From contig JAAYLR010000237.1 in assembly GCA_012521815.1 (NCBI GenBank), forward strand, positions 1 through 52,401: DNA of 52,401 bases, read 5' to 3'. The notes under the pieces were generated by a model that worked only from the letters and a program-made list of their open reading frames with translations, searched no databases and was not told the DNA's origin. The stretch comes from Acidobacteriota bacterium. GTDB lineage: Bacteria; Acidobacteriota; Thermoanaerobaculia; Multivoradales; JAGPDF01. Below are positions 10,491 to 21,562 of the stretch, piece by piece. The stretch's first letter is position 1. Each line of letters starts with the position of its first letter. A program made the translations under genes and the position numbers.

Positions 10491-11903
10491 TCAGAACAGA
10501 TCGCTGTCGCCGCGCGTGAGGTAGAAATCGGCGCCGAGCCGCGCCGCCGGCACCGGCTCGCACCCCGCGACGGCGGTGAAGACGAGCCCCTGCGGGTCGG
10601 GAGCCTCCCGGAAGCCGGTCTCGGCGAGTGCCCGCTGCCACCAGCCGGCCGCCGGCGAGAACCACCCCTCGACCGTCGTCACGCTCTCGCCCGTCCTGAG
10701 CGCGGAGGCGAGCAGGAGCGGCGCCGCCGCGGCGGCCTCGGGCGCCACGAGGGCATCTCCCCAGACGAGCCGCCCGTCCTCCCGGTGGAAGATCGCCCAG
10801 CCGAGCAGCTCCTCGCCCCGTTCGGCGAGATGGAGCTCGTACCTCCGGCCGGGGCGGGAGAAGTACCGCCAGGCGAGGTAGCGCCGGTCGCGGCGGGCGA
10901 GGAGCCGGTAGCCGTGCCGGGCGCGCTCGTGGAAGGCGTCGAAGCGGGCGTCGGGAGCCGCAACCCGGCGCGCTCGCCAGCCGGCGAGCCGCAGCGCTCG
11001 CGTCCGGCGCGCGAGCGCCGGGCCATGCGCGCTCGGCTCGTACACCCACAATGGCGCCGGCAGGAACGGAACGGCGCCGGCGAAGCGTACGGAGAAGGCA
11101 CGGCTGGTGCCGGTGTGCACGCCGTAGCTGAAGGCGACGCCGTCGCGACGGCGCGCCGCGTAGAAGTGGTCGCCGGTACGAGCGAAGAGGCTCGTCCCAC
11201 CGCGCCCTGTACCCCTGAGGTCGGGAGCGCTCATGAGGTCGCCCACCTGCGCGGCGACGAGCGTCCGGAACCGCTCCCCCTCCCGCCGTTCGAGCCGCAC
11301 CGGGTAGGCGCCGTAATGGGCGACGATCTCGCCGTCGCCGGCGACGGCGATGCTGCTCCAGGGGCCGCCATGCGGGTGGTCCCGGTAGCGCCATCGCCAC
11401 TCTTCACCGGCTCGTGAAACGTGGAAACAGCGGGTGAAGAGGGCGCCCAGACGAACCTCTTCACCGGGGGCGAGCGCCCGGATCCGGAACGGATCCCGGC
11501 GGGCGAGCCAGAGCGCCGGTCCGGAGCCCGCTGCGGAGCGGGTATCCAGGAGCACGCAGCCCGCTTCGTGGAGCGCGAGGCGGATCCGGTCGGTGGTCGC
11601 GGTCGTCGCGTCCGGGGGGAGCAGAAGCACGAGCCTGCCCTCCGCCGTGAGCGCTGCCGCCGCGGCCGCGATCCGGGCCGCCGCGCTGGCGGGCGTGGCG
11701 CCGTCGAGAGCGAGCAGGGCGAACGCGAGCGGTCCGGCGGCAGCATCGGCTGCCCGTTGCCAGGCGATGGCGGAGAGCGGGGGTGTGGCCAGCGCGGCGT
11801 CGAGGTCCGGACCGTGCGGAGGAAGGATCGTTCCCTGCCTTCCGGCGATGCTGCGCCAGCGCGAGGAGAGTGCCGGCTCGGTCTGTTCCTCGGGTGGACA
11901 CAT
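10491..11903 (-). CDS. GNAT-type acetyltransferase with partial methyltransferase-like N-terminal region
   Basis: 470 residues from the ATG at 11903, chosen because GGGAGG lies upstream and because the longer frame would run into the divergent glycosyltransferase gene. Residues about 130-320 look GNAT-like: FRIRALAPGEEVRLGALFTRCF, IVAHYGAYPVRL, then VGDLMSAPDLRGTGRGG, which resembles the acetyl-CoA phosphate-binding RGxGxG/A loop. Residues about 60-125 (ARIAAAAAALTAEGRLVLLLPP) resemble the C-terminal strands of a class I methyltransferase but lack the SAM-binding GxGxG strand. The C-terminal 150 residues may be a second GNAT half. Divergent to the glycan operon, it may acetylate an amino sugar made there, which is inference from position. 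Confidence 0.55.
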   Translation of the reverse strand: MCPPEEQTEPALSSRWRSIAGRQGTILPPHGPDLDAALATPPLSAIAWQRAADAAAGPLAFALLALDGATPASAAARIAAAAAALTAEGRLVLLLPPDATTATTDRIRLALHEAGCVLLDTRSAAGSGPALWLARRDPFRIRALAPGEEVRLGALFTRCFHVSRAGEEWRWRYRDHPHGGPWSSIAVAGDGEIVAHYGAYPVRLERREGERFRTLVAAQVGDLMSAPDLRGTGRGGTSLFARTGDHFYAARRRDGVAFSYGVHTGTSRAFSVRFAGAVPFLPAPLWVYEPSAHGPALARRTRALRLAGWRARRVAAPDARFDAFHERARHGYRLLARRDRRYLAWRYFSRPGRRYELHLAERGEELLGWAIFHREDGRLVWGDALVAPEAAAAAPLLLASALRTGESVTTVEGWFSPAAGWWQRALAETGFREAPDPQGLVFTAVAGCEPVPAARLGADFYLTRGDSDLF

Positions 11904-11949
11904 CGGGGTCGGCGACCTCCCGCGGCCCGGAGAAGGCCGCGTCAGCACG

Positions 11950-11956
11950 TAGAATA
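11950..11956. promoter_or_regulatory. Symmetric TAGAATA: overlapping divergent -10 elements
   Basis: TAGAATA reads TAGAAT on the plus strand (11950-11955), 9 bases before the GTG of the first glycosyltransferase, and TATTCT on the minus strand (11951-11956), about 47 bases before the GNAT start. One AT-rich island could thus start transcription in both directions. No good -35 on either side. Confidence 0.5.
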
Positions 11957-11964
11957 CCCCGCAC

Positions 11965-12729
11965 GTGAAGCTCTCCGTGGTGATACCCGCCTTCAACGAA
12001 GGAGCGCGCCTGGGGCCGAGCCTGGAGAGGGTGCTGGCCTATCTGGCCACCCGTGCGGAGCCGTCGGAGGTCATCGTCGTCGACGACGGGAGCGGGGACG
12101 ATACCGCCGCCGTGGCCGCAGCCTTCGCGGAGCGCGGGGTCCGCCTCGTCCGCCTTCCCGAGAATCGCGGCAAGGGGGCGGCGCTCGGGGCCGGCGTGGC
12201 GGTGAGCCGGGGAGCGCGGGTGCTGCTCTGCGACGCCGATCTCTCCACCCCGATCGAAGAGGTCGAGCGGCTCGAAGAGCAGCTCGCCGGGAGCGAGATC
12301 GTCATCGGCAGCCGCAGCATCGCGGCCTCCGAGATCACGGTGCGGCAGCCCCGCTTCCGGGAATGGATGGGGCGGGTCTTCAACCGCATCCTGCGCCTCG
12401 TCGGCCTCGCGAGCTTTCGCGACACGCAGTGCGGCTTCAAGCTGCTGCGGGGAGAGGTGGCGCGCGAGCTGTTCGCCGCGCTGCGGATCGAGCGCTTCGC
12501 CTTCGACGTCGAGCTGCTCTGGCTGGCGCAGCGCCGCGGCCTCCGGATCGCCGAGGTCGGGGTGCGCTGGGCGGACTCGGCGGGCTCGCGCGTCCATCCG
12601 GTTCGCGACAGCCTGAACATGCTCCTCGACGTGCTCGCGTTGCGCTGGCGCGCCTGGCGAGAGGAGGGTCGGCGCCGGCCGCGCGCCGTCCCGCCCGGTG
12701 TGGAGACTCCGAACGGAACGGGCGACTGA
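11965..12729 (+). CDS. GT2 glycosyltransferase, dolichyl/polyprenyl-phosphate glucose synthase-like
   Basis: 254 residues. The GTG start is supported because MKLSVVIPAFNE is the usual N-terminus of this family. GT-A motifs: VIVVDDGSGDDT (DDGS at 40-43), NRGKGAALGAG (68-77), the DxD-like CDADLSTP (90-92), IGSRS (114-118) and DTQCGFKL (153-160), the last being characteristic of the ALG5/DPM1 group that moves a sugar from a nucleotide donor onto a polyprenyl phosphate. No membrane anchor is present, so it is a soluble or peripheral enzyme. It is followed 57 bases later by a YfhO-type membrane protein. No SD; a TAGAAT -10 lies 9 bases before the start. Confidence 0.85.
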   Translation: MKLSVVIPAFNEGARLGPSLERVLAYLATRAEPSEVIVVDDGSGDDTAAVAAAFAERGVRLVRLPENRGKGAALGAGVAVSRGARVLLCDADLSTPIEEVERLEEQLAGSEIVIGSRSIAASEITVRQPRFREWMGRVFNRILRLVGLASFRDTQCGFKLLRGEVARELFAALRIERFAFDVELLWLAQRRGLRIAEVGVRWADSAGSRVHPVRDSLNMLLDVLALRWRAWREEGRRRPRAVPPGVETPNGTGD

Positions 12730-12786
12730 CGGCACGTCGCCGTTCGTCCGGTTCCGGAAAGGGAACGAGATCGTCGAGAGACAGAC

Positions 12787-15057
12787 GTGCCGGCCGTGAA
12801 CCCGCTGCTCCTGCTCCTGCTCGTCCTCGCTCTCGGGGCGCCACCCCTCCTGCGGCGGCGCGATGGTGCCTGGGGCTGGCTCGCCGCCGGGCTCGCGGGG
12901 ATCGCCCTGCTCGCGCCGGCGCTCACTCTACCCGACGGCGTGCCGAGTCCGGCGGCGAGCCTCGGCGCGAGCGCACCCTGGCAGGGGGTGCTCGATCCGG
13001 CCAGCGGCAACGAGAACCTCCGCGACGTCACGCACCAGATCGAGCCGTGGCTCCTCTTCCAGCGCCGGGAGTGGCGGCACGGCCGGTTCCCCTTCTGGAA
13101 CCCGCACCAGTTCGCGGGGGCGCCGTACTGGAGCAACGGACAGGGGGCGCCGCTCTTTCCGCTCCACCTCCTCTTCGCCGTCCTGCCGCTGCGGCTCGGG
13201 CTCCTGCTTCTCCCCTGGCTGCGGGTGGCGATCGGCGGCAGCGGGGCGTACCTCCTCGCCCGCGCCCTCGGTACCCGGCGGGGTGCGGCGGCGCTTGCCG
13301 CGGTGGTCTTTCCTCTCTCCGGGATGCCCGCGGGTTTCCTCCTCTTCCCGATGGGCAACGCCCTCATGCTCGTGCCGTGGGCGCTGCTCGCCACCGAGCG
13401 GCTCGCCGCGCGGCACGGCGGCTGGCGTCCGCTCGCGGTGGTGGCCGGGCTCATGCTCCTCTCCGGGCATCCGGAGACGGCGGTCTTCACGGGGCTGCTC
13501 GCCACGCTCTACCTGCTCGGGCGTCGCGTCGAGCCGGGGCAGGCCGCCCGCACCTGGGCCGAGTTCCTCGGGGGTTGGGCGGCAGGGGCGCTGCTCGCAG
13601 CGGTCGCCATCCTGCCCCTCTTCCTCACCCTGCGCGAGAGCGGCAAGTGGCTCGTGCGGCTCTCCTCGCCGCCGCCGGGGTTCGGCACCCTGCTCCTCCT
13701 CTGGTCGCGTTTCGTGCTTCCCGACGGGCTGGGAGACGCCGGGATGGGGACCTGGTGGGGGCCGTACAACGACATCGCGACCGGGGTCTACGTGGGGGCG
13801 ATCCCGCTCCTGCTCGCGCTCGCCGCGCTCCCCGTGGCACGGCGCGACCGGCGGCTCCGGGCGTTCGCGCTCGTCGGGCTGGCGGCGCTGGCGGGGGCGT
13901 ATCACCTGCCGGGCGCGCGGCAGCTCCTCCTCGCCCTGCCGCTCATCGGCCGCGGGATCCATCACTACCTGAAGTTCGGCGTCGAGCTGGTCCTGGCGCT
14001 GCTCGCCGTGCGCGGGGCGACGGAGTGGGCTGAACGCCGCCCGGGCCGCTCGCTCGGAATCGCCACCGCAACGGTTGGGCTCGCGCTCGCGGCGAGCTGG
14101 CTCGCCTTCGGCAGGGAGTGGACGCAGCGGGGGCTGGTGAGGAGCCAGCTCGCCTGGACGGTGGCGTTCGGCCTCGGGGTGGCGCTCCTGTTCGCGGGGC
14201 GGTGGCTGGAGCGGGCTCAGCGGCGCCGGCTGCTCCCGCTCCTCGCGCTCTTCGCGGCGATCGATCTCGCCTTCGCCCACGCGCCGATCGCTCCCGCGCT
14301 GCCGGCACACGCGCTCTACCCGGAGACGCCGGCAGTCGCCTTCCTCGCCGGGCAGGAGGGGCGGCTCGTGGGCGCCGGCAGCGCGTTCCACCCGAACGCC
14401 GCGATGGTCTACGGCCTCGCCGACCTGCGGGGTGACGATCCGGTCAAGCTGCGACGGTTCGAACGGGTCTACGCGGAGCTCGCCGGCGCCGACGATCCCG
14501 TCTACCACCTGCCGGTGCGCGACTGGGACTCCCCCTGGCTCGACCGCCTCGGGATCCGCTGGGTGGTCGCCGAGCCCGGCGCGGCGGCGCTCCGGCCGGA
14601 GTGGCGGCTGGCTTTCGACGGCGAGGACGCCCGGGTCTGGGAGCGGCCGGGCGCGTTGCCGCTCGTCCGCTGGGAGGATGGCGAGGCCGCGGAAGTGCGC
14701 CAGCGTGAGCCCGGCCACTGGGAGATCGGCGCGGCCGCCTCGGCTCCGGCCCGCCGGCTCGTCGTCGCGGAGTGCTGGGACCGAGGCTGGCGCGCCCGGG
14801 TGGACGGGCGGGAGGTGCCGGTCGAACGCGAAGGGGAGCTGTTGCTCGGCGTCGACGTGCCGGCGGGTGCCGGGCGGGTCGAGCTCCGCTACCGCCCGCA
14901 CGGCATCGGTGCCGGGCTCGCGCTGAGCGCCGCCGGGCTCCTCCTCCTTCTCGGACCGTGGCTCTGCGGAATCGCGGCTAGAATCGGCGGCGTGAGCCCC
15001 GCTGCAGAGAGATCCGCACGCGTCGGCCGAACGAAAACGGGTCGTCGAGGGGAGTGA
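12787..15057 (+). CDS. YfhO-family multi-spanning membrane protein, probable glycan transferase
   Basis: 756 residues, GTG start. At least ten hydrophobic segments spread over residues 5-490. The loop after the second segment has NLRDVTHQIEPWL and GRFPFWNPHQFAGAPYW, the acidic/aromatic first-loop pattern of YfhO and related GT-C-like proteins. The C-terminal part has a globular domain (ECWDRGWRARVDGREVPV, then GVDVPAGAGRVELRYRP) and a final membrane span, the YfhO hallmark. In Firmicutes YfhO acts outside the membrane and uses a polyprenyl-phosphate sugar made by a GT2 partner; the gene just upstream is such a GT2. Acceptor unknown here. The 3' end carries an internal TAGAAT -10 (14979-14984) that may serve the next genes. 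Confidence 0.8.
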   Translation: MPAVNPLLLLLLVLALGAPPLLRRRDGAWGWLAAGLAGIALLAPALTLPDGVPSPAASLGASAPWQGVLDPASGNENLRDVTHQIEPWLLFQRREWRHGRFPFWNPHQFAGAPYWSNGQGAPLFPLHLLFAVLPLRLGLLLLPWLRVAIGGSGAYLLARALGTRRGAAALAAVVFPLSGMPAGFLLFPMGNALMLVPWALLATERLAARHGGWRPLAVVAGLMLLSGHPETAVFTGLLATLYLLGRRVEPGQAARTWAEFLGGWAAGALLAAVAILPLFLTLRESGKWLVRLSSPPPGFGTLLLLWSRFVLPDGLGDAGMGTWWGPYNDIATGVYVGAIPLLLALAALPVARRDRRLRAFALVGLAALAGAYHLPGARQLLLALPLIGRGIHHYLKFGVELVLALLAVRGATEWAERRPGRSLGIATATVGLALAASWLAFGREWTQRGLVRSQLAWTVAFGLGVALLFAGRWLERAQRRRLLPLLALFAAIDLAFAHAPIAPALPAHALYPETPAVAFLAGQEGRLVGAGSAFHPNAAMVYGLADLRGDDPVKLRRFERVYAELAGADDPVYHLPVRDWDSPWLDRLGIRWVVAEPGAAALRPEWRLAFDGEDARVWERPGALPLVRWEDGEAAEVRQREPGHWEIGAAASAPARRLVVAECWDRGWRARVDGREVPVEREGELLLGVDVPAGAGRVELRYRPHGIGAGLALSAAGLLLLLGPWLCGIAARIGGVSPAAERSARVGRTKTGRRGE
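14979..14984 (+). promoter_or_regulatory. Possible internal -10 for the downstream glycan genes
   Basis: TAGAAT inside the last codons of the YfhO gene, about 80 bases before the PIG-L/GT2 start. Same hexamer as at 11950. No -35 seen, so it may be chance. Confidence 0.3.
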
Positions 15058-15063
15058 TCCGGG

Positions 15064-16911
15064 ATGCGCTCCGTCGACACGCCGCCGGGAGTCCCCGCCG
15101 AGATCGCGAGCGAGCGAACGCTCGTCCTCGCGCCGCACCCCGACGACGAAGCGCTCGGCTGTGGCGGCCTGCTCGCCCGCCTGCGCGCGGCTGGCCGCAC
15201 GCAGGTGCGGGTCGCCTTCCTCACCGATGGCAGCGGGGGTGTCGAACCGGTCGACGACCGGCGGGCCTACGCCGCGCGGCGGCGCGCCGAGGCGGCTCGC
15301 GCGGCGGTGCCGCTCGGCATCGAGGAGATCACCCACCTCGACTTTCCCGACGGGCACCTCGAGGCGTACCTGTCCGAGCTCTCCGAAGCGCTGCGGGAGC
15401 TGCTCGCGGCCGCGCCGCCGGATCTGCTGCTCGTGCCCTCGCCGGCGGAGCTCTCCGCCGATCACCGGGCGGCGTTCGCCGCGCTCCACCGGCTGCTCGC
15501 ATCGCTGCCGGAGGGGGATCCGCTCCTCGCGAGCCTGCGCGCCACCCGCATCCTCGCCTACGAGGTCAACGGCCCGCTGGTGCCCGACCTGCTCGTCGAC
15601 GTCAGCGGTGAGCTCGGCGCGATCGAGGAGGCGATGGCGGCCTACGCCAGTCAGGAAGCGCGCCACCCGTACCTCGATGCGGCCTTGGGGCTGCGGCGCT
15701 TCCGGACCCTCACGCTCGCGCCGGAGATCGTGGCCGCCGAGGCGTACCGGGAGCTCGAGGTCGCCGACTTCCGCACCCGTGGACCCCGGGCGCTCGCCGC
15801 CGCGCTCGGCGCGGAGCGCGAGCCGGCCGCAGTGCGGGAGTGGCCGGCGATCTCGGTGGTCGTGCGCACCGTGGATCGCCCCGCGCTGCTCGCCGAAGCG
15901 CTCGCGAGCCTCGCGGCAAGCCGGTATCCGCGGCTCGAGCTGGTGCTGGTCAACGACGGCGGCCCCCCGCCCGAGCTGCCGGGCGATCTCCCGTTCCCGG
16001 TGCGGCGGCGCGACCTCGCCGCGCGCCGCGGCCGGGGCGGGGCGGCGAACGAGGGGATCGCGGCGGCTACCGGGAGCCATGTCGCCTTCCTCGACGACGA
16101 CGACCTCGTCGAGCCCGAGCATTACGAGGTGCTGGCCGGGCTCCATGCCGGCACGGGCGTCCGCGTCGCCTACACCGACGCGGCGGTCGGCGTCTACGAG
16201 CTCGCGCCCGCCGGGGGCTGGCGGCAGGTCGAGCGGCGGGTGCCGTACAGCCGGGAGTTCGATCCCGATCTCCTGCTCCTCGACAACTACATCCCGTTCA
16301 ACACCCTCCTCACCGAGCGGGAGCTCCTCCGCGCCGCCGGACCGATCGACGAGGAGCTGCCGTTCTTCGAGGATTGGGAGCTGCTCATCCGGCTGAGCGG
16401 GCTGGCCCGCTTCCACCATCTCGCCCGCGTCACCTGCGAATACCGGCATTTCCGGGGCAGCGGGCAGATCTTCGGCGAGAGCCCCGCCGCGCGGGCCGAC
16501 TTCCTCGCGGTCAAGGAGCGGGTGATCGCCCGCCACCGGGAGCGGCTAACCCCGGCTCTCCTGGCGCGGCTGATTGCACGCCTCCGCGCCGAGACGGTGG
16601 CGCTTGCCGGGGAACGGGACGCGGCGCGGGCAGGCGAGTGCGATCTCGCCCGCGAGGCCGGCGAGGCGCGGGCCGCGGAGCACCGTCTCCACGGCGAGGT
16701 GGTGGCGCTGCGCGCGGAGCAGGAACGGTTCGCGACGGCGGCGGCGGAGCGCGGCAGCGAGCTCGAGCGGCTCTGGGCCGAGGAGAAGGCGCTCCACACG
16801 GCGCTCGCGCGCACCTACGCCGAGATCGAGCGGCTCAACGGCCTCATCGCGAGCATGGAGGCGACGCGGGCCTGGCGCGTGCACCGCTGGCTGACGCGGC
16901 GCGGGCGGTGA
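15064..16911 (+). CDS. Fusion: PIG-L/LmbE deacetylase + GT2 glycosyltransferase + C-terminal coiled coil
   Basis: 615 residues; ATG preceded by GAGGGG. Residues about 17-225 are a PIG-L zinc deacetylase: APHPDDEALGCGG gives His25 and Asp28, and SADH gives His134. Residues about 262-480 are a GT2 domain: SVVVRTVDRP, LVNDGG (295-300), AANEGIAAATG, FLDDDDLVEP (343-351) and FEDWELLIRL. Residues about 500-600 are Ala/Glu/Arg-rich heptads, a likely coiled coil. PIG-L enzymes remove acetyl from N-acetylglucosaminyl groups; with a transferase in the same chain, the protein could transfer and then de-acetylate a hexosamine. The stop overlaps the next gene's GTG (GTGA), implying translational coupling. 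Both halves look catalytically intact. Confidence 0.87.
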   Translation: MRSVDTPPGVPAEIASERTLVLAPHPDDEALGCGGLLARLRAAGRTQVRVAFLTDGSGGVEPVDDRRAYAARRRAEAARAAVPLGIEEITHLDFPDGHLEAYLSELSEALRELLAAAPPDLLLVPSPAELSADHRAAFAALHRLLASLPEGDPLLASLRATRILAYEVNGPLVPDLLVDVSGELGAIEEAMAAYASQEARHPYLDAALGLRRFRTLTLAPEIVAAEAYRELEVADFRTRGPRALAAALGAEREPAAVREWPAISVVVRTVDRPALLAEALASLAASRYPRLELVLVNDGGPPPELPGDLPFPVRRRDLAARRGRGGAANEGIAAATGSHVAFLDDDDLVEPEHYEVLAGLHAGTGVRVAYTDAAVGVYELAPAGGWRQVERRVPYSREFDPDLLLLDNYIPFNTLLTERELLRAAGPIDEELPFFEDWELLIRLSGLARFHHLARVTCEYRHFRGSGQIFGESPAARADFLAVKERVIARHRERLTPALLARLIARLRAETVALAGERDAARAGECDLAREAGEARAAEHRLHGEVVALRAEQERFATAAAERGSELERLWAEEKALHTALARTYAEIERLNGLIASMEATRAWRVHRWLTRRGR

Positions 16912-18176
16912 GCCGGATCGCGCTGCTTTCGAGCGAGCCGGTGCGCCCGCGCATGGCGGGGATCGGCATCCGCTACCTGGAGCTCGCCCGGCGCCTGCCC
17001 GCCGCGGGTTTCGAGACGGTCCTGATCTCGCCGGCGAGCCGGGAGGAGAGCGCCGCGGCGGGGCTCGCTCCGGAGGCCGTCCGGCCGTTCGGCAGCGCGC
17101 CGCTCCCCGAGCTGGTGCGCGACTGCGCCGCGGCGGTGGCGCAGGGGCAGCTCGCCAACGACCTCCTGCTGGCCGCGCCGGCGCTGCCGGTGGCGATCGA
17201 CCTCTACGACCCGTGGCTCGTGGAGAACCTCCACTACACGGCGACCCTCGGTCTCGACCCGTACCGCAACGACCACACCACCTGGGTCCTCCAGATGGCT
17301 CGCGGCGACTTCTTCCTCTGCTCCTCGGAAGAGCAGCGGCTCTACTACCTCGGCTTTCTCACCGCGCTCGGCCGGGTGAACCCCGAGCGGCTCGGAGCCG
17401 ACTCCGATCTGCGCGCGCTCGTCGACACGGTGCCGTTCGGCCTCCCCGCGACGCTGCCTGCTCATCGTCCGGTGCTCCCTGCGTGCCGGCCGGGGGAGCG
17501 GCATCTCCTCTTCGGGGGGCTCTACGACTGGTACGACCCGTTCACCCTGATGGCGGCGCTCGCCCGGCTGGAGGGGCACGACTGGACGCTCTGGCTGGTG
17601 CGCAACCCCAACCCGGAAGGGACCCCGCAGCGGCTCTTCGCCGAGGTCGAGGCCGACTGCCGGCGGCGCGGCTGGTGGGGGGGGCGGGTCCGGATGCTCG
17701 ACTGGATCGCCGCCGAGCGGCGCTACGACCTGCTCCGCGACGCCGACCTCCTGGTCGCTCCGCACCACCCGACGCTCGAGACCCGGCTCGCGCTCCGCAC
17801 CCGTTTCCTCGAAGCGCTCGCCGTCGGCTGCCCGGTCGTGGTGAGCGAGGGCGGCGCGATCGCCCGGATGGTGAGCGAGGCGCGGGCGGGGTGGGTGGTG
17901 CCGTGCGGAGACGAAGCGACGCTCGCCGCGGCGCTCGCCGAGGTGCTCGCGGGCGGGCCGGAGGTGGCGGCCCGGCGCGAGCGCGGGGAGCGGCTCGCGG
18001 CGGCGTTCGGCTGGGAACGCGCGCTCGCCCCGCTCGTCCGGTTCCTCCGCTCGCCGCGGAGCGATCCGACGAAGGAGCGGTTCGCCTTCCGGCCGCCCAC
18101 CGGGGCTCCCGCCGACCGCTTCGGCTTCCGCCTCCGGCGCTGGCTCGACCGACTCCGTACGGAGATGGGGGGATGA
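16908..18176 (+). CDS. GT-B (GT4-like) glycosyltransferase
   Basis: 422 residues; the GTG start overlaps the preceding stop in GTGA. The N-terminus IALLSSEPVRPRMAGIGIRYLELARRLPAAG is the usual first strand-loop-helix of GT4 enzymes. LLFGGLYDWYDPFTLMAAL begins the donor domain, and ETRLALRTRFLEALAVGCPVVV followed by SEGGAIARMV is the nucleotide-sugar binding region, with Glu residues in place of the classic EX7E pair. The central region includes LLAAPALPVAIDLYDPW and QMARGDFFLCSSEEQRLYYLG, seen in transferases of large glycan clusters. Donor and acceptor unknown. It overlaps the next gene by four bases (ATGA). Confidence 0.82.
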   Translation: MSRIALLSSEPVRPRMAGIGIRYLELARRLPAAGFETVLISPASREESAAAGLAPEAVRPFGSAPLPELVRDCAAAVAQGQLANDLLLAAPALPVAIDLYDPWLVENLHYTATLGLDPYRNDHTTWVLQMARGDFFLCSSEEQRLYYLGFLTALGRVNPERLGADSDLRALVDTVPFGLPATLPAHRPVLPACRPGERHLLFGGLYDWYDPFTLMAALARLEGHDWTLWLVRNPNPEGTPQRLFAEVEADCRRRGWWGGRVRMLDWIAAERRYDLLRDADLLVAPHHPTLETRLALRTRFLEALAVGCPVVVSEGGAIARMVSEARAGWVVPCGDEATLAAALAEVLAGGPEVAARRERGERLAAAFGWERALAPLVRFLRSPRSDPTKERFAFRPPTGAPADRFGFRLRRWLDRLRTEMGG

Positions 18177-19498
18177 GCCGGCTCGACGGCGTCTCCGTCC
18201 TGCTCCTCTCGTGGAACGGGCGCGAGCACCTCGCGACCTGCCTCGAGGCGCTCGCCGCGCAGGAGCCCCCCGGGGTGCCGTGGGAGATCCTCGTGCTCGA
18301 CAACGGCTCGCGCGACGGGACCGCCGACTGGCTCCGGCGCGAGCACCCCGGGGTGCGGCTCCACGAGAGCCCGGAGAACGTCGGCTTCTGCCGCGGCAAC
18401 CTCCGGCTCGCCGGCGCGGCCCGGTACGGCGCCCTCGCGCTGCTCAACAACGACATGCGGCCGCGGCCCGGCTGGCTGGGTACCCTCGTCGAGAGCCTCG
18501 GCACGGCGCCGGCCGACGTCGCCGCGGTCTCGGGGCTGATCGTCGACTGGGAGGGGGAGCGGCTCGATTTCGGGCGCGGGCTGCTCACCTTCGACGGGCA
18601 CGCCTTCCAGCTCGACTTCCGCCGCCCGCTCGGGGCCGCCCGCATCCCGGCGCCGGGCGAGGAGCTGCCGTTCGCCTGCGGCGGCAACATGCTGGTGCGC
18701 CGGGAGGCGTTCTTCGCCGCCGGCGCCTTCGACCCCGACTACTTCGCCTACTTCGAGGACGTGGACCTCGGCTGGCGGCTCTGGTCGGGAGGCGAACGGG
18801 TGCTGGCGGCGCCGGGAGCGGTCGCCCATCATCGCGCGAGCGCCACGAGCGATCGCCTCGGCAACTACAACCGGGGGCTCCTCTTCGAGCGCAACGCGCT
18901 CCTGACCGTCTACAAGAACCTCGAGCCGGAGTGGTGGGAGCGGCTCCTGCCGGCGATCCTCCTCACCTTCCTCTCCCGCACGCAGACCCTGCTGGTGGAG
19001 GGGAACGCCGGCGGCGAGACGCTCACGATCGATCCGTATGCCCCCGGCGGCGCGGTCGCCGTCGCGGCCGGCCCTCCGGCCGGAGCTGGCGCGAGCGCAC
19101 CGCGCCGGCTCGCCCGTCGCGGCCGGGCGTGGCTGCGGCGCCGGGCGCTGCACCTCCTCGGGAGGGCCGGCGGGCTGCCCCCGCCGGTGCGGGCGCTCCT
19201 CGCCGGGGAGGGGGATGGGGGCGCGGGCCTCTGGCTCGGCGAGCCGCGGAGCGTCGCCCAGCTCCGGGCACTCTCGTTCTTCCTCGCGCAGCTCGACGCC
19301 ACCGCCGAGAAGCGCCGGCAGATCCAGGCGCGCCGCCGCCGCAGCGACGCCGACTACTTCGCCCGCTTCCCCCTCTACCTCGTGCCGACCTATCCGGGCG
19401 ATGCCGAGCTCTTCGCCCGGCCCGGCTTCCGGGCCGCGCTGCCCGCGGGGCTCCCCCTGGTCGAGGCCCGGCTCGAGGAGATCATGGAGTGCAGGTGA
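18173..19498 (+). CDS. GT2 glycosyltransferase, rhamnosyltransferase-like
   Basis: 441 residues; ATG start overlapping the preceding stop (ATGA). GT-A motifs: SVLLLSWNGREHL (8-20), ILVLDNGSRDGTADWL, ENVGFCRGN, LLNNDMRPRPGW as the DxD region, ACGGNMLVRREAFFAAGAFD and FAYFEDVDLGWRLW, the pattern of WbbL/rhamnosyltransferase-type enzymes. The catalytic part ends near residue 265. The remaining 175 residues hold a hydrophobic stretch (LLPAILLTFLSRTQTLL, about 260-276) and an Arg/Ala-rich tail that probably attaches to the membrane or to partner enzymes. Sugar specificity cannot be assigned from motifs. Confidence 0.85.
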   Translation: MSRLDGVSVLLLSWNGREHLATCLEALAAQEPPGVPWEILVLDNGSRDGTADWLRREHPGVRLHESPENVGFCRGNLRLAGAARYGALALLNNDMRPRPGWLGTLVESLGTAPADVAAVSGLIVDWEGERLDFGRGLLTFDGHAFQLDFRRPLGAARIPAPGEELPFACGGNMLVRREAFFAAGAFDPDYFAYFEDVDLGWRLWSGGERVLAAPGAVAHHRASATSDRLGNYNRGLLFERNALLTVYKNLEPEWWERLLPAILLTFLSRTQTLLVEGNAGGETLTIDPYAPGGAVAVAAGPPAGAGASAPRRLARRGRAWLRRRALHLLGRAGGLPPPVRALLAGEGDGGAGLWLGEPRSVAQLRALSFFLAQLDATAEKRRQIQARRRRSDADYFARFPLYLVPTYPGDAELFARPGFRAALPAGLPLVEARLEEIMECR

Positions 19499-20484
19499 GC
19501 GGCGCCGGCGGGGAGGAGCCCCCGCTCTTTTCGATCGTCATCCCGACCTTCGACCGGCTCGAGGTGCTGCGGGAGGTGCTCGCGGCGCTCGGCGCCCAGG
19601 CGAACCCGCCGCCGTTCGAGGTGGTGGTGGTCGACGACGGGTCGAGTGACGGCACCGCCGAGTGGCTCGCCGGTTTTCAGCCCCCCTACCCCCTCACCCG
19701 CCTCCGCCAGCCGAACCGGGGGCCGGCGGCGGCGCGGAACGCCGGGGTGGCGGCGGCCCGGGGGGAGCGGGTGGCCTTTCTGGGGGACGACACCGTCCCC
19801 GACGCGGACTGGCTCGCCTGGCACGAGCGGGCGTGGCGGGCGCGCGGGGCCGCTCCCGAGCTCGCGGTGATCGGGCGCACCGACTGGCACCCCCGCCTCC
19901 GGCGCACCCCGCTGCTCGACTACCTCAACGAACAGGGGCTGCAGTTCGGGTTCGGGCTCATCTCCGACCCCGAGCAGGTGCCGTTCAACTTCTTCTACAC
20001 CTCGAACCTCTCGCTCTCCCGGGCGCTGCTCCTCGCCGAGCCGTTCGACCTGCGCTTCCCCTATGCGGCGTGGGAGGACATCGAGGTCGCGTGGCGGCTC
20101 ACGCGGCATGGTCTGCGGATCGTCTACGAGGCGCGGGCGCGGGTGGCGCACGACCACCCGACCGACCTCGACCGCTTCGCCCGGCGGCAGGAGCGGGCCG
20201 GCTACTGCGCGGTCGTCTTCCGGCGGCTCCATCCGGAGCTCGGCGGGTTCGTCGGTCTGGGGGAAGGGGGGCCACCGCCGCTCCCGTCACGGCGGGCACA
20301 CCGGCTGCGCGAACGGTTGGCCCGGGCCTTGCAATTTCTCCCGGTGAGCACGCCCCGGCTCTGGGAATCGGTTTTCCGGTTCCATTACATCGAGGGGCTC
20401 CAGCGCGGTTGGCGCGAGCTCGGAGCGGGGCGGGAAGAGGAGGGCAGCGATGAAGACGAGAGGACTTTCCTGGGGTTGGACTGA
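19495..20484 (+). CDS. GT2 glycosyltransferase
   Basis: 329 residues from the GTG that overlaps the preceding stop (GTGA). Motifs: FSIVIPTFDRLEVLREVL, VVVVDDGSSDGTAEWL, PNRGPAAARNAGVAAARG, VAFLGDDTVPDADW and WEDIEVAWRL, giving a complete GT-A fold with acidic metal and base residues. The C-terminus (after about 240) is basic and amphipathic, fitting membrane association. It is the last transferase of the coupled run and overlaps the PEGA-protein gene by 35 bases. Acceptor and donor unknown. Confidence 0.85.
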   Translation: MSGAGGEEPPLFSIVIPTFDRLEVLREVLAALGAQANPPPFEVVVVDDGSSDGTAEWLAGFQPPYPLTRLRQPNRGPAAARNAGVAAARGERVAFLGDDTVPDADWLAWHERAWRARGAAPELAVIGRTDWHPRLRRTPLLDYLNEQGLQFGFGLISDPEQVPFNFFYTSNLSLSRALLLAEPFDLRFPYAAWEDIEVAWRLTRHGLRIVYEARARVAHDHPTDLDRFARRQERAGYCAVVFRRLHPELGGFVGLGEGGPPPLPSRRAHRLRERLARALQFLPVSTPRLWESVFRFHYIEGLQRGWRELGAGREEEGSDEDERTFLGLD

Positions 20485-21562
20485 GTGGCGTCCCATCCTG
20501 TTCGCGCTCCTGCTTGGAGCGGGGCTGGCGACGGCCGCCGCTGCCGAGACCCGCACGGCACCGGGAGGTAGCCGGGAGGGTGGGCGCGGGGCGTCCGCCA
20601 CGGCGCGCTCGGCGACCCGGGTGCCGCCGTCCGGACCGAGCGAAGCCGCCGTCACGCACCGCTCCTCTTCGCGGGGAGGGGGAGACACGGTTTCCTCGTC
20701 GCGCCCTCGCGGGGATTCCCGCCACTACCGGGATTCGCGGTATCGCCGGCCGGGCTACCGGCCGCATCCCCGTCCTGGCGTTCGCTTCTCGTACTCGGCC
20801 TACTGGCCCCTCTGGCACTACGGTGTCTACCTGGGCTGGCCGTACTTCAACTACTGGAACGACTGGTTTCTCTATCCCACGGGGGTGCAGCAGGCGCAGG
20901 CGCTGGGACTCGGAGCGCTCGACCTCGATGTCAGCCCCGAGCGGGCGCACGTCTACCTCGACGGCCAGTACCTCGGGGTGTGCGACGACTACGACGGCTT
21001 CCCGGACTACCTCTGGCTCGAACCGGGAACCTACGACCTCGTCTTCTATCTCGACGGGTACAGGACGGTCGCTCATCAGGTGACCGTGCGGTCGGGGGTG
21101 AAGCTCGACTTCAACGACCGGATGGTCCCGGGTGAATCGGTCCGGCCGGAAGATCTCCCGTCGAAATCCGTGGAGCGCCGGGAGGAGCGGCTTCGCCGGG
21201 ATCGGGAAGCCGCGACGGCGGCCGGCGCGGTGCAGGGAGAGCGTGAGGAGGCGTGGCGCACGCGACGCGAGTCGGGCTACGAGCCCGGGGCGGAGCCGGC
21301 GACCCCTTCCGAGGTTCTCGACGCCCGCGGCGAGCCGGGTCGCCTGCAGCTGCGGGTCGTGCCTCCGGACGCCTCGGTCTATCTCGACGGCCGTTTCCTC
21401 GGCACCGGCGAAGATCTCGCACGCCTCCACTCGAGCCTGCTCGTCGACGCCGGCAGGCACCGGCTCGAGATCGTCCGGCCGGGGTACGAGAGCCTCAGGA
21501 AGGAGTTCACCGCCGCTCCGGGCGAGGCGGTCGTCCTGGATCTGCAGCTCGAAGAGGAGTGA
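20450..21562 (+). CDS. Exported protein with two PEGA domains
   Basis: 370 residues; ATG preceded by GAGGAGG at a good distance, inside the end of the upstream transferase gene. A signal peptide is likely (core about 15-32, ending AAAAE). Residues 33-150 are a low-complexity Ser/Arg/Gly region and then an aromatic stretch (YWPLWHYGVYLGWPYFNYWN). PEGA domains: about 157-225 (LDVSPERAHVYLDGQYLG ... EPGTYDLVFYLDGY) and about 300-368 (RVVPPDASVYLDGRFLG ... DAGRHRLEIVRPGY), separated by a charged helix. PEGA domains are beta-sandwich modules of surface proteins. Its overlap with the glycan operon suggests it is an acceptor or envelope partner, which is inference. Confidence 0.8.
   Translation: MKTRGLSWGWTEWRPILFALLLGAGLATAAAAETRTAPGGSREGGRGASATARSATRVPPSGPSEAAVTHRSSSRGGGDTVSSSRPRGDSRHYRDSRYRRPGYRPHPRPGVRFSYSAYWPLWHYGVYLGWPYFNYWNDWFLYPTGVQQAQALGLGALDLDVSPERAHVYLDGQYLGVCDDYDGFPDYLWLEPGTYDLVFYLDGYRTVAHQVTVRSGVKLDFNDRMVPGESVRPEDLPSKSVERREERLRRDREAATAAGAVQGEREEAWRTRRESGYEPGAEPATPSEVLDARGEPGRLQLRVVPPDASVYLDGRFLGTGEDLARLHSSLLVDAGRHRLEIVRPGYESLRKEFTAAPGEAVVLDLQLEEE

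Follow-up and report, generated by a model that had tools for sequence, protein, structure and literature searches.

What would a pair of genes reminiscent of teichoic acid glycosylation do in a bacterium from which no teichoic acid is expected? The question is raised by contig JAAYLR010000237.1 of an Acidobacteriota bacterium (GenBank assembly GCA_012521815.1; 2.95 Mb, 243 contigs, 98.6% complete), whose positions 1 to 52,401 make up the stretch analysed here and termed the window (52,401 nucleotides). In this window a gene for a glycosyltransferase of family 2 (GT2) directly precedes a gene for a YfhO-like membrane protein. Acidobacteriota are diderm, no teichoic acid is expected in them, and to our knowledge little is known about the surface glycans of bacteria of this kind. 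A preliminary description, made from the sequence alone, had read the two genes as a CsbB/YfhO-like pair acting on another acceptor, perhaps a lipid or a PEGA protein. The pair is real and the general mechanism was right; both the name given to the family and the proposed acceptor have to be revised. On balance, we consider it probable that the two genes form a GtrA-free periplasmic glycosylation module located inside a surface-glycan locus. The fold, the catalytic-type residues, the co-occurrence of the two genes, the locus context and the lack of a GtrA match, on which this reading is built, were all computed. The elements of the pair are the following:

11965..12729, + strand: GT2 polyprenyl-phosphate-sugar synthase, probably DPM-type, 254 amino acids, without transmembrane (TM) helix (PF00535, model, invariant residues)
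12787..15057, + strand: YfhO-like glycosyltransferase with predicted GT-C fold, 756 amino acids, start probably at 12796 (PF09586, AlphaFold2 model)
13024..13026, + strand: codon of Asp80, presumed first periplasmic loop (computed from start 12787 as 12787+79*3)
14659..14904, + strand: predicted beta-sandwich domain in the C-terminal part of the YfhO-like protein, residues ~625-706 (secondary structure of the model)

Both open reading frames (ORFs) were confirmed and are spaced by 57 nt, the first encoding the DTQCGFK motif already noticed in the preliminary description. Since orthologues of the YfhO-like protein align from a GTG at 12796, this is probably the true start of the second gene.

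The GT2 matches PF00535 with 97.8 bits. Its AlphaFold model, built on a ten-row alignment (pLDDT 84.7), was closest in the PDB to DPMS (5mlz, Z 27.0, 237 residues aligned, 3.0 Å), ArnC (24.3) and GtrB (22.9); the ten top rows all belong to these three kinds, the tenth being tied with the next kind. Soluble glucosyl-3-phosphoglycerate synthases come after them with Z 20.9. Sequence matches in the PDB start at E 4.2e-12, and residues D40, D41, S43, D90, D92, R117, R132 and D153 are invariant over the 33 genomes carrying this GT2. With a modelled GT-A fold nearest to DPMS, GtrB and ArnC and a DXD motif, the protein is probably a DPM-type polyprenyl-phosphate-sugar synthase. The DTQCGFK motif presumably resembles that of eukaryotic ALG5. 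All 18 NCBIfam matches lie below cut-off, led by PpgS (64.6 bits), ArnC (59.1) and AglJ (57.4), and no equivalog cut-off, which would fix the sugar, was reached (370 bits for PpgS, the best). No segment exceeds the hydropathy threshold for a membrane helix, and the model shows no helix beyond residue 236 of 254. Another GT2 of the same genome, on contig C174, carries the related motif DFNCGFK as well as two hydrophobic segments at its C-terminal end; no GT-C neighbour was recognised there on inspection by eye.

For the YfhO-like protein, a model of high confidence was obtained from a 34-row alignment (pLDDT 92.5, pTM 0.92). In the VIA comparison it was matched by STT3 (Z 17.9, 436 residues aligned, 4.5 Å), PglB (17.3), AftD (16.4, 535 aligned), Pmt4 (15.5) and ArnT (13.9), and Foldseek returned AftD (E 2.3e-8) and ArnT (E 3.1e-5). 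AftD, Pmt4 and ArnT use lipid-phosphate-linked monosaccharides. Judged by this model, the second gene product is a member of the GT-C-fold glycosyltransferase superfamily, and the structural matches of both proteins thus support the earlier reading as a polyprenyl-phosphate-sugar-synthase-type GT2 with a GT-C membrane protein. Asp80 is the sole acidic residue invariant across 34 relatives sharing 22-70% identity with the YfhO-like protein (70% for that of G001, a member of the same genus), and its position is Asp in 48 of 49 rows, among them that of a Listeria YfhO, with a gap in the remaining row. We presume that this residue is the catalytic one and that it lies in the first extracytoplasmic loop. 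The C-terminal beta domain resembles those of agarase, dextranase and fucosidase at Z ~6, a weak value that may reflect a shared arrangement alone. A PDB sequence search with the whole protein gave five uninformative matches (best E 0.18).

Is it then a YfhO? Against PF09586 the protein scores 66 bits in two partial stretches (gathering score 28.5), and 31 of its 34 relatives match at E<=0.01, whereas Listeria YfhO scores 403.5 bits over positions 2-833 of the 835 of the model. Proteins annotated "YfhO family" from the diderms Bacteroides, Bernardetia and Microvirga gave 33.7, 46.2 and 46.6 bits, and the one from Solidesulfovibrio gave no PF09586 match. These yardsticks came from six stretches of 11 plasmid records found with the relative L092, a Limosilactobacillus one being dropped for having no ORF >400 amino acids at the match; the same plasmid search with the protein of the window gave no match. 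Going by these scores, the window protein is a remote YfhO only and no ordinary one, as judged against one Listeria YfhO and not against YFHO_BACSU. Trees of YfhO-like proteins were unreliable in their deep branches, and only a 12-member orthologue clade (support 1.0) was used.

The label CsbB/YfhO could therefore not be kept. The CsbB-GtcA-YfhO system, which adds GlcNAc to teichoic acids in Bacillus and Listeria, is alike in combining a GT-A polyprenyl-phosphate-sugar maker with a PF09586 GT-C protein, and csbB and yfhO are gene neighbours in B. subtilis (PMC5836110, PMC8035078, PMC7389260). Unlike CsbB, which has two C-terminal TM helices (PMC5836110), the GT2 of the window has no membrane helices; no GtcA/GtrA match accompanies it; its partner is a distant YfhO-like protein without a full-length PF09586 match; and its locus is one for a surface glycan, with ABC (ATP-binding cassette) exporter genes in relatives. 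A fitting counterpart is component 27 of Durairaj et al. 2023, described as "YfhO-like" in that it is annotated YfhO yet distant from reference YfhO, with a GT-C fold, STT3/PglB among its top matches and a length of 665 +/- 169 residues (PMC10584680). The window protein, whose 756 residues fall inside this range, fits the description of component 27, a family represented by A0A7X7MB17. The section of that paper devoted to the family mentions neither a partner gene nor a substrate. No functional study of this YfhO clade was found in the open-licence literature under its family name or under YfhO with Acidobacteri.

The two genes also travel together. Among 59 genomes up to order level (own genome counted, GT2 presence scored at E<=1e-30), any YfhO-like gene was found in 32 and the GT2 in 33: both occur in 27, only the YfhO-like gene in five, only the GT2 in six and neither in 21. 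Counted by genus within the order, both are present in 18, a single one in 1+1 and neither in six. The GT2 was found in all 13 genomes with the close YfhO orthologue clade against 20 of the 46 others. Co-occurrence thus exceeds chance, in counts that ignore kinship, and speaks for the earlier reading, against which its absence in relatives would have counted. The GT2 lies directly 5' of the YfhO-like gene in the window and in G014 and G022; in G001 the two are neighbours 0.9-1 kb apart, and in G012 and G033 two genes stand between them, one GNAT-like and one for a methyltransferase on the opposite strand. Beyond this group, among 80 named YfhO-like loci, six from records not titled Acidobacteria are preceded by a GT2 of the same strand, within ~120 nt in L092, L123, L126, L127 and L141 and at ~1 kb in L083. 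Their titles, which like all taxon names of relatives used here are those of the records and may be wrong, read Dadabacteria (L083), Chloroflexi (L123) and only "bacterium" for the other four.

The pair shares its operon with the genes that follow it, which overlap or are separated by gaps of 6 nt. These genes and the divergent neighbour of the GT2 are:

10491..11996, - strand: divergent GNAT-like gene (PF13527 24.9 bits, narrowly missing the cut-off of 25)
15064..16911, + strand: PIG-L deacetylase-GT2 fusion (PF02585 91.4 bits, PF00535 57.5 bits)
16908..18176, + strand: GT4 glycosyltransferase (PF13692 54 bits)
18173..19498, + strand: GT2b, a GT2 glycosyltransferase (PF00535 68 bits)
19489..20484, + strand: GT2c, a GT2 glycosyltransferase (PF00535 89.4 bits)
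20450..21562, + strand: PEGA-domain protein with signal-like N-terminus and S/T/G/R-rich stretch (PF08308 59.1 bits)

In relatives a conserved cluster often surrounds the GT2: Wzt ATPase, Wzm (in three genomes), GT4, GT2, GNAT-like gene, the GT2 synthase, an optional YfhO-like gene, an optional sulfatase-family gene, PIG-L/GT2, GT4, GT2b, GT2c and PEGA. Members vary by genome, and none besides the GT2 was matched next to it in G009, G013, G017, G021, G032, G034, G042 and G045. The GNAT-like gene is the divergent neighbour of the GT2 in six of the 33 genomes, own counted. A Wzt-type ABC ATPase (>300 bits) was found in 13 of the 33 GT2 loci and a Wzm permease in three, in counts that include the query loci G026 and G002, cover flanks of unequal length and were checked by Pfam for one each. 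Elsewhere in the own genome there are three Wzm permease homologues, on contigs C29, C187 and C98 (Pfam ABC2_membrane confirmed for C29), and a Wzt_C on C29. In all five YfhO-linked loci whose contigs continue, PIG-L/GT2, GT4 and GT2b lie downstream, preceded in G014 and G022 by GNAT-like and sulfatase-family genes; the contig of G033 ends inside the YfhO-like gene.

The PEGA gene behaves differently from the pair. It was matched in the GT2 locus of all eight genomes of the family of the window (f1), including G004 (84% complete) and G007 (92%), in which no YfhO-like gene was found, and just two of these eight show linkage of the YfhO-like gene and the GT2. No PEGA gene was seen in the YfhO-containing loci of G012, G014 and G022, which could be read only 0.4-1 kb past GT2b. 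The PEGA protein, proposed in the preliminary description as a possible acceptor, was rejected in this role as the main explanation: PEGA tracks family f1, not the YfhO-like gene.

How the sugar would cross the membrane is a separate question, as the usual polyprenyl-phosphate-sugar flippase is GtrA. The absence of a GtcA gene, noticed earlier for the window, extends to the genome: no GtrA/PF04138 match was found in it, nor in any of the 13 genomes carrying the YfhO orthologue clade. The same search found PF04138 in 10 of the 59 genomes and in seven of 14 controls, B. subtilis included, and in two of three further genomes searched (L081, L093, L101). Across genomes, GtrA against the YfhO orthologue clade gave p 0.10, and an apparent anti-association of GT2 and GtrA (1/33 vs 9/26 genomes, p 0.003) was not used, as it vanishes by genus (p 0.29) because one genus, g6, supplies seven of the 10 GtrA genomes; these p-values carry no correction for kinship. 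None of the 13 orthologue genomes, own included, has a match to DUF2304 (PF10066), to which we take GacJ to belong. The SMR family (PF00893) exceeded its cut-off in two of the 13 (G023, 4.1e-29; G029, 8.5e-5, in a frame of 296 amino acids) and gave a match below cut-off in G022. Wzx (PF01943) occurs in 59 of 59 genomes and is thus uninformative. Since GtcA is required in Bacillus and Listeria (PMC7389260), the scheme, if correct, requires that some other transporter or the GT-C protein do the flipping here.

We infer the reactions, the flipping step and the acceptor as follows. The soluble GT2 would transfer the sugar of a nucleotide sugar to polyprenyl phosphate on the cytoplasmic side of the inner membrane. 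The lipid-linked sugar would then be moved to the periplasmic face by a transporter, which could be the YfhO-like protein itself or, for example, a flippase of the Wzx/MATE type. There the YfhO-like GT-C protein would add the sugar, via Asp80, to the glycan that the operon builds through its PIG-L/GT2-GT4-GT2-GT2 genes, an acceptor that the C-terminal beta domain of the protein perhaps holds. In the Klebsiella O antigen, an ABC-exported galactan receives a side sugar (PMC7556023, PMC11127046); given this precedent and the locus context, the acceptor would most simply be the glycan of the same locus. A wider and clearly more tentative possibility is that the YfhO-like family of diderm phyla, together with a soluble DPM-type synthase, constitutes a GtrA-free module decorating ABC-exported surface polysaccharides, in which the YfhO-like protein or a yet-unrecognised transporter flips the polyprenyl-phosphate-sugar. 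A GT-C family of a kind called functionally dark in 2023 would gain in this way a plausible donor supplier and a locus in diderms, and genomes without detected GtrA make the flipping step testable.

Several observations weigh against such a module. No flippase was identified among GtrA, DUF2304, SMR and Wzx (a search that did not extend to the EamA, MATE and MurJ families), and one of the six pair genomes not titled Acidobacteria, G059 (L083), does have GtrA, the completeness of the six not being stated. No gene of the window could be recognised as coding for an exporter. In seven of the 13 orthologue genomes the GT2 and the YfhO-like gene lie on separate contigs, although in one of these, G020, the GT2 contig stops 0.5 kb past the gene, and 67 of the 80 named YfhO-like loci have no GT2 of at least 50 bits in the flanks examined, some of them short. 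The GT2 is present with no YfhO-like gene found in G004, G007, G017, G024, G028 and G034, and the converse applies to G016, G037, G043, G046 and G048. Genomes that carry several YfhO-like genes have one GT2 for all of them, which is therefore no private partner of any. Finally, the best structural matches being STT3 and PglB, a diphosphate-linked oligosaccharide donor is compatible with the fold.

Three other explanations can be given. The GT2 could be a general supplier of polyprenyl-phosphate-sugar to several GT-C proteins, its place beside the YfhO-like gene being a convenience of a shared locus. A single GT2 of this type is present in 30 of the 33 GT2 genomes (E<=1e-30), yet many of these have several YfhO-like genes, the own genome has two more on C105, and the PIG-L cluster occurs with the GT2 and without an adjoining YfhO-like gene in G002-G005, G008, G011, G023, G026 and G027; on the other side, the close succession of GT2 and YfhO-like gene recurs in distant genomes. 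We hold this explanation to be unlikely in place of a dedicated module, with which it is nonetheless compatible.

Equally improbable in our judgement is a protein O-glycosylation system resembling Streptococcus Pgf, in which the pair would decorate secreted proteins such as PEGA or large PKD-domain proteins. The only NCBIfam matches of the YfhO-like protein are PgfM1 and PgfM2, over 58-60 C-terminal residues and with 26-29 bits; they recur in 17 and 21 of the 34 relatives, although such scores are far under the cut-offs of 1400-1500 bits. The pgfS-M1-E-M2 genes modify surface proteins, and the Streptococcus mutans Pgf system shares with the window a GT-A protein, large membrane proteins and this weak C-terminal hidden Markov model similarity; it differs in a membrane-bound PgfS, surface-protein targets and an epimerase in the operon (PMC5856776). 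The PEGA protein carries an S/T-rich stretch (29% serine plus threonine in residues 25-90) and PKD secreted proteins are encoded near the Wzt gene in relatives, but PEGA presence does not go with YfhO presence and the most constant neighbours of the pair are glycosyltransferase genes. That the YfhO-like protein transfers a whole diphosphate-linked oligosaccharide, leaving the GT2 product unused, is very unlikely: grouping with oligosaccharyl-type GT-C enzymes, which the preliminary description had held to speak against its reading, is seen in the lead of STT3 and PglB, to which Durairaj et al. also tie the YfhO-like family (PMC10584680), but it stays at the level of the fold, with only ~10% identity to STT3, with AftD, Pmt4 and ArnT only 1.5, 2.4 and 4.0 Z behind, and with a genomic partner that resembles a polyprenyl-phosphate-sugar synthase.

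The periplasmic module that we favour has partial parallels in diderms. The gmlABC/GtrABC systems modifying O antigens likewise join a polyprenyl-phosphate-sugar synthase to a periplasmic GT-C protein; they include a GtrA-type flippase, of which none was found here (PMC7556023, PMC11127046). In the three-component GT136 pentofuranose system of Citrobacter youngae O1/O2, the O antigen receives side sugars from a GT-C protein whose glycan-binding domain is rich in beta structure, the locus has Wzt, and the flippase is not GtrA-named and is assigned by the authors to the MATE family; the system differs in that its donor maker is a phosphoribose synthase, not a GT2, and in that the locus has its own small flippase gene (PMC11127046). 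Systems of the GacI/GacJ type combine a soluble GT-A protein with a helper membrane protein, for which no DUF2304 gene was found here.

YfhO-like genes are numerous in relatives of the order, G012 among them, with a maximum of 16 matching stretches per genome. The two further genes of the own genome are divergent and lie at 7063-13660 of contig C105 (L038), while G003 (L054) has two on the same strand. An ORF with 8-9 TM segments adjoins both of these double loci, the own copy having no Pfam match, and no GT2 of the present type was matched at either of them. Polytopic ORFs are also encoded near the GT2 in relatives without a YfhO-like gene there (L065:803-2773, L060:6225-8090, L073:8400-10304) and are perhaps unrecognised GT-C proteins or polymerases; the first two lack a Pfam match. 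The membrane ORFs beside the GT2 of G015 and G027, to which one in G039 is similar, were considered as alternative GT-C proteins; neither of the two was matched by Pfam at 0.01, and a profile comparison with the YfhO-like alignment gave no match. Large proteins are encoded near the Wzt gene in relatives, one with PKD domains (L066:3-2201) and one without Pfam match (L067:4757-6202), with counterparts elsewhere. Near the Wzt ATPase there is also a radical SAM/SPASM protein (L060:3003-4151; PF04055 and PF13186, tested on L060), with further matches in the GT2 loci of G012, G014, G020, G033 and on contig C501 of G001 (L193).

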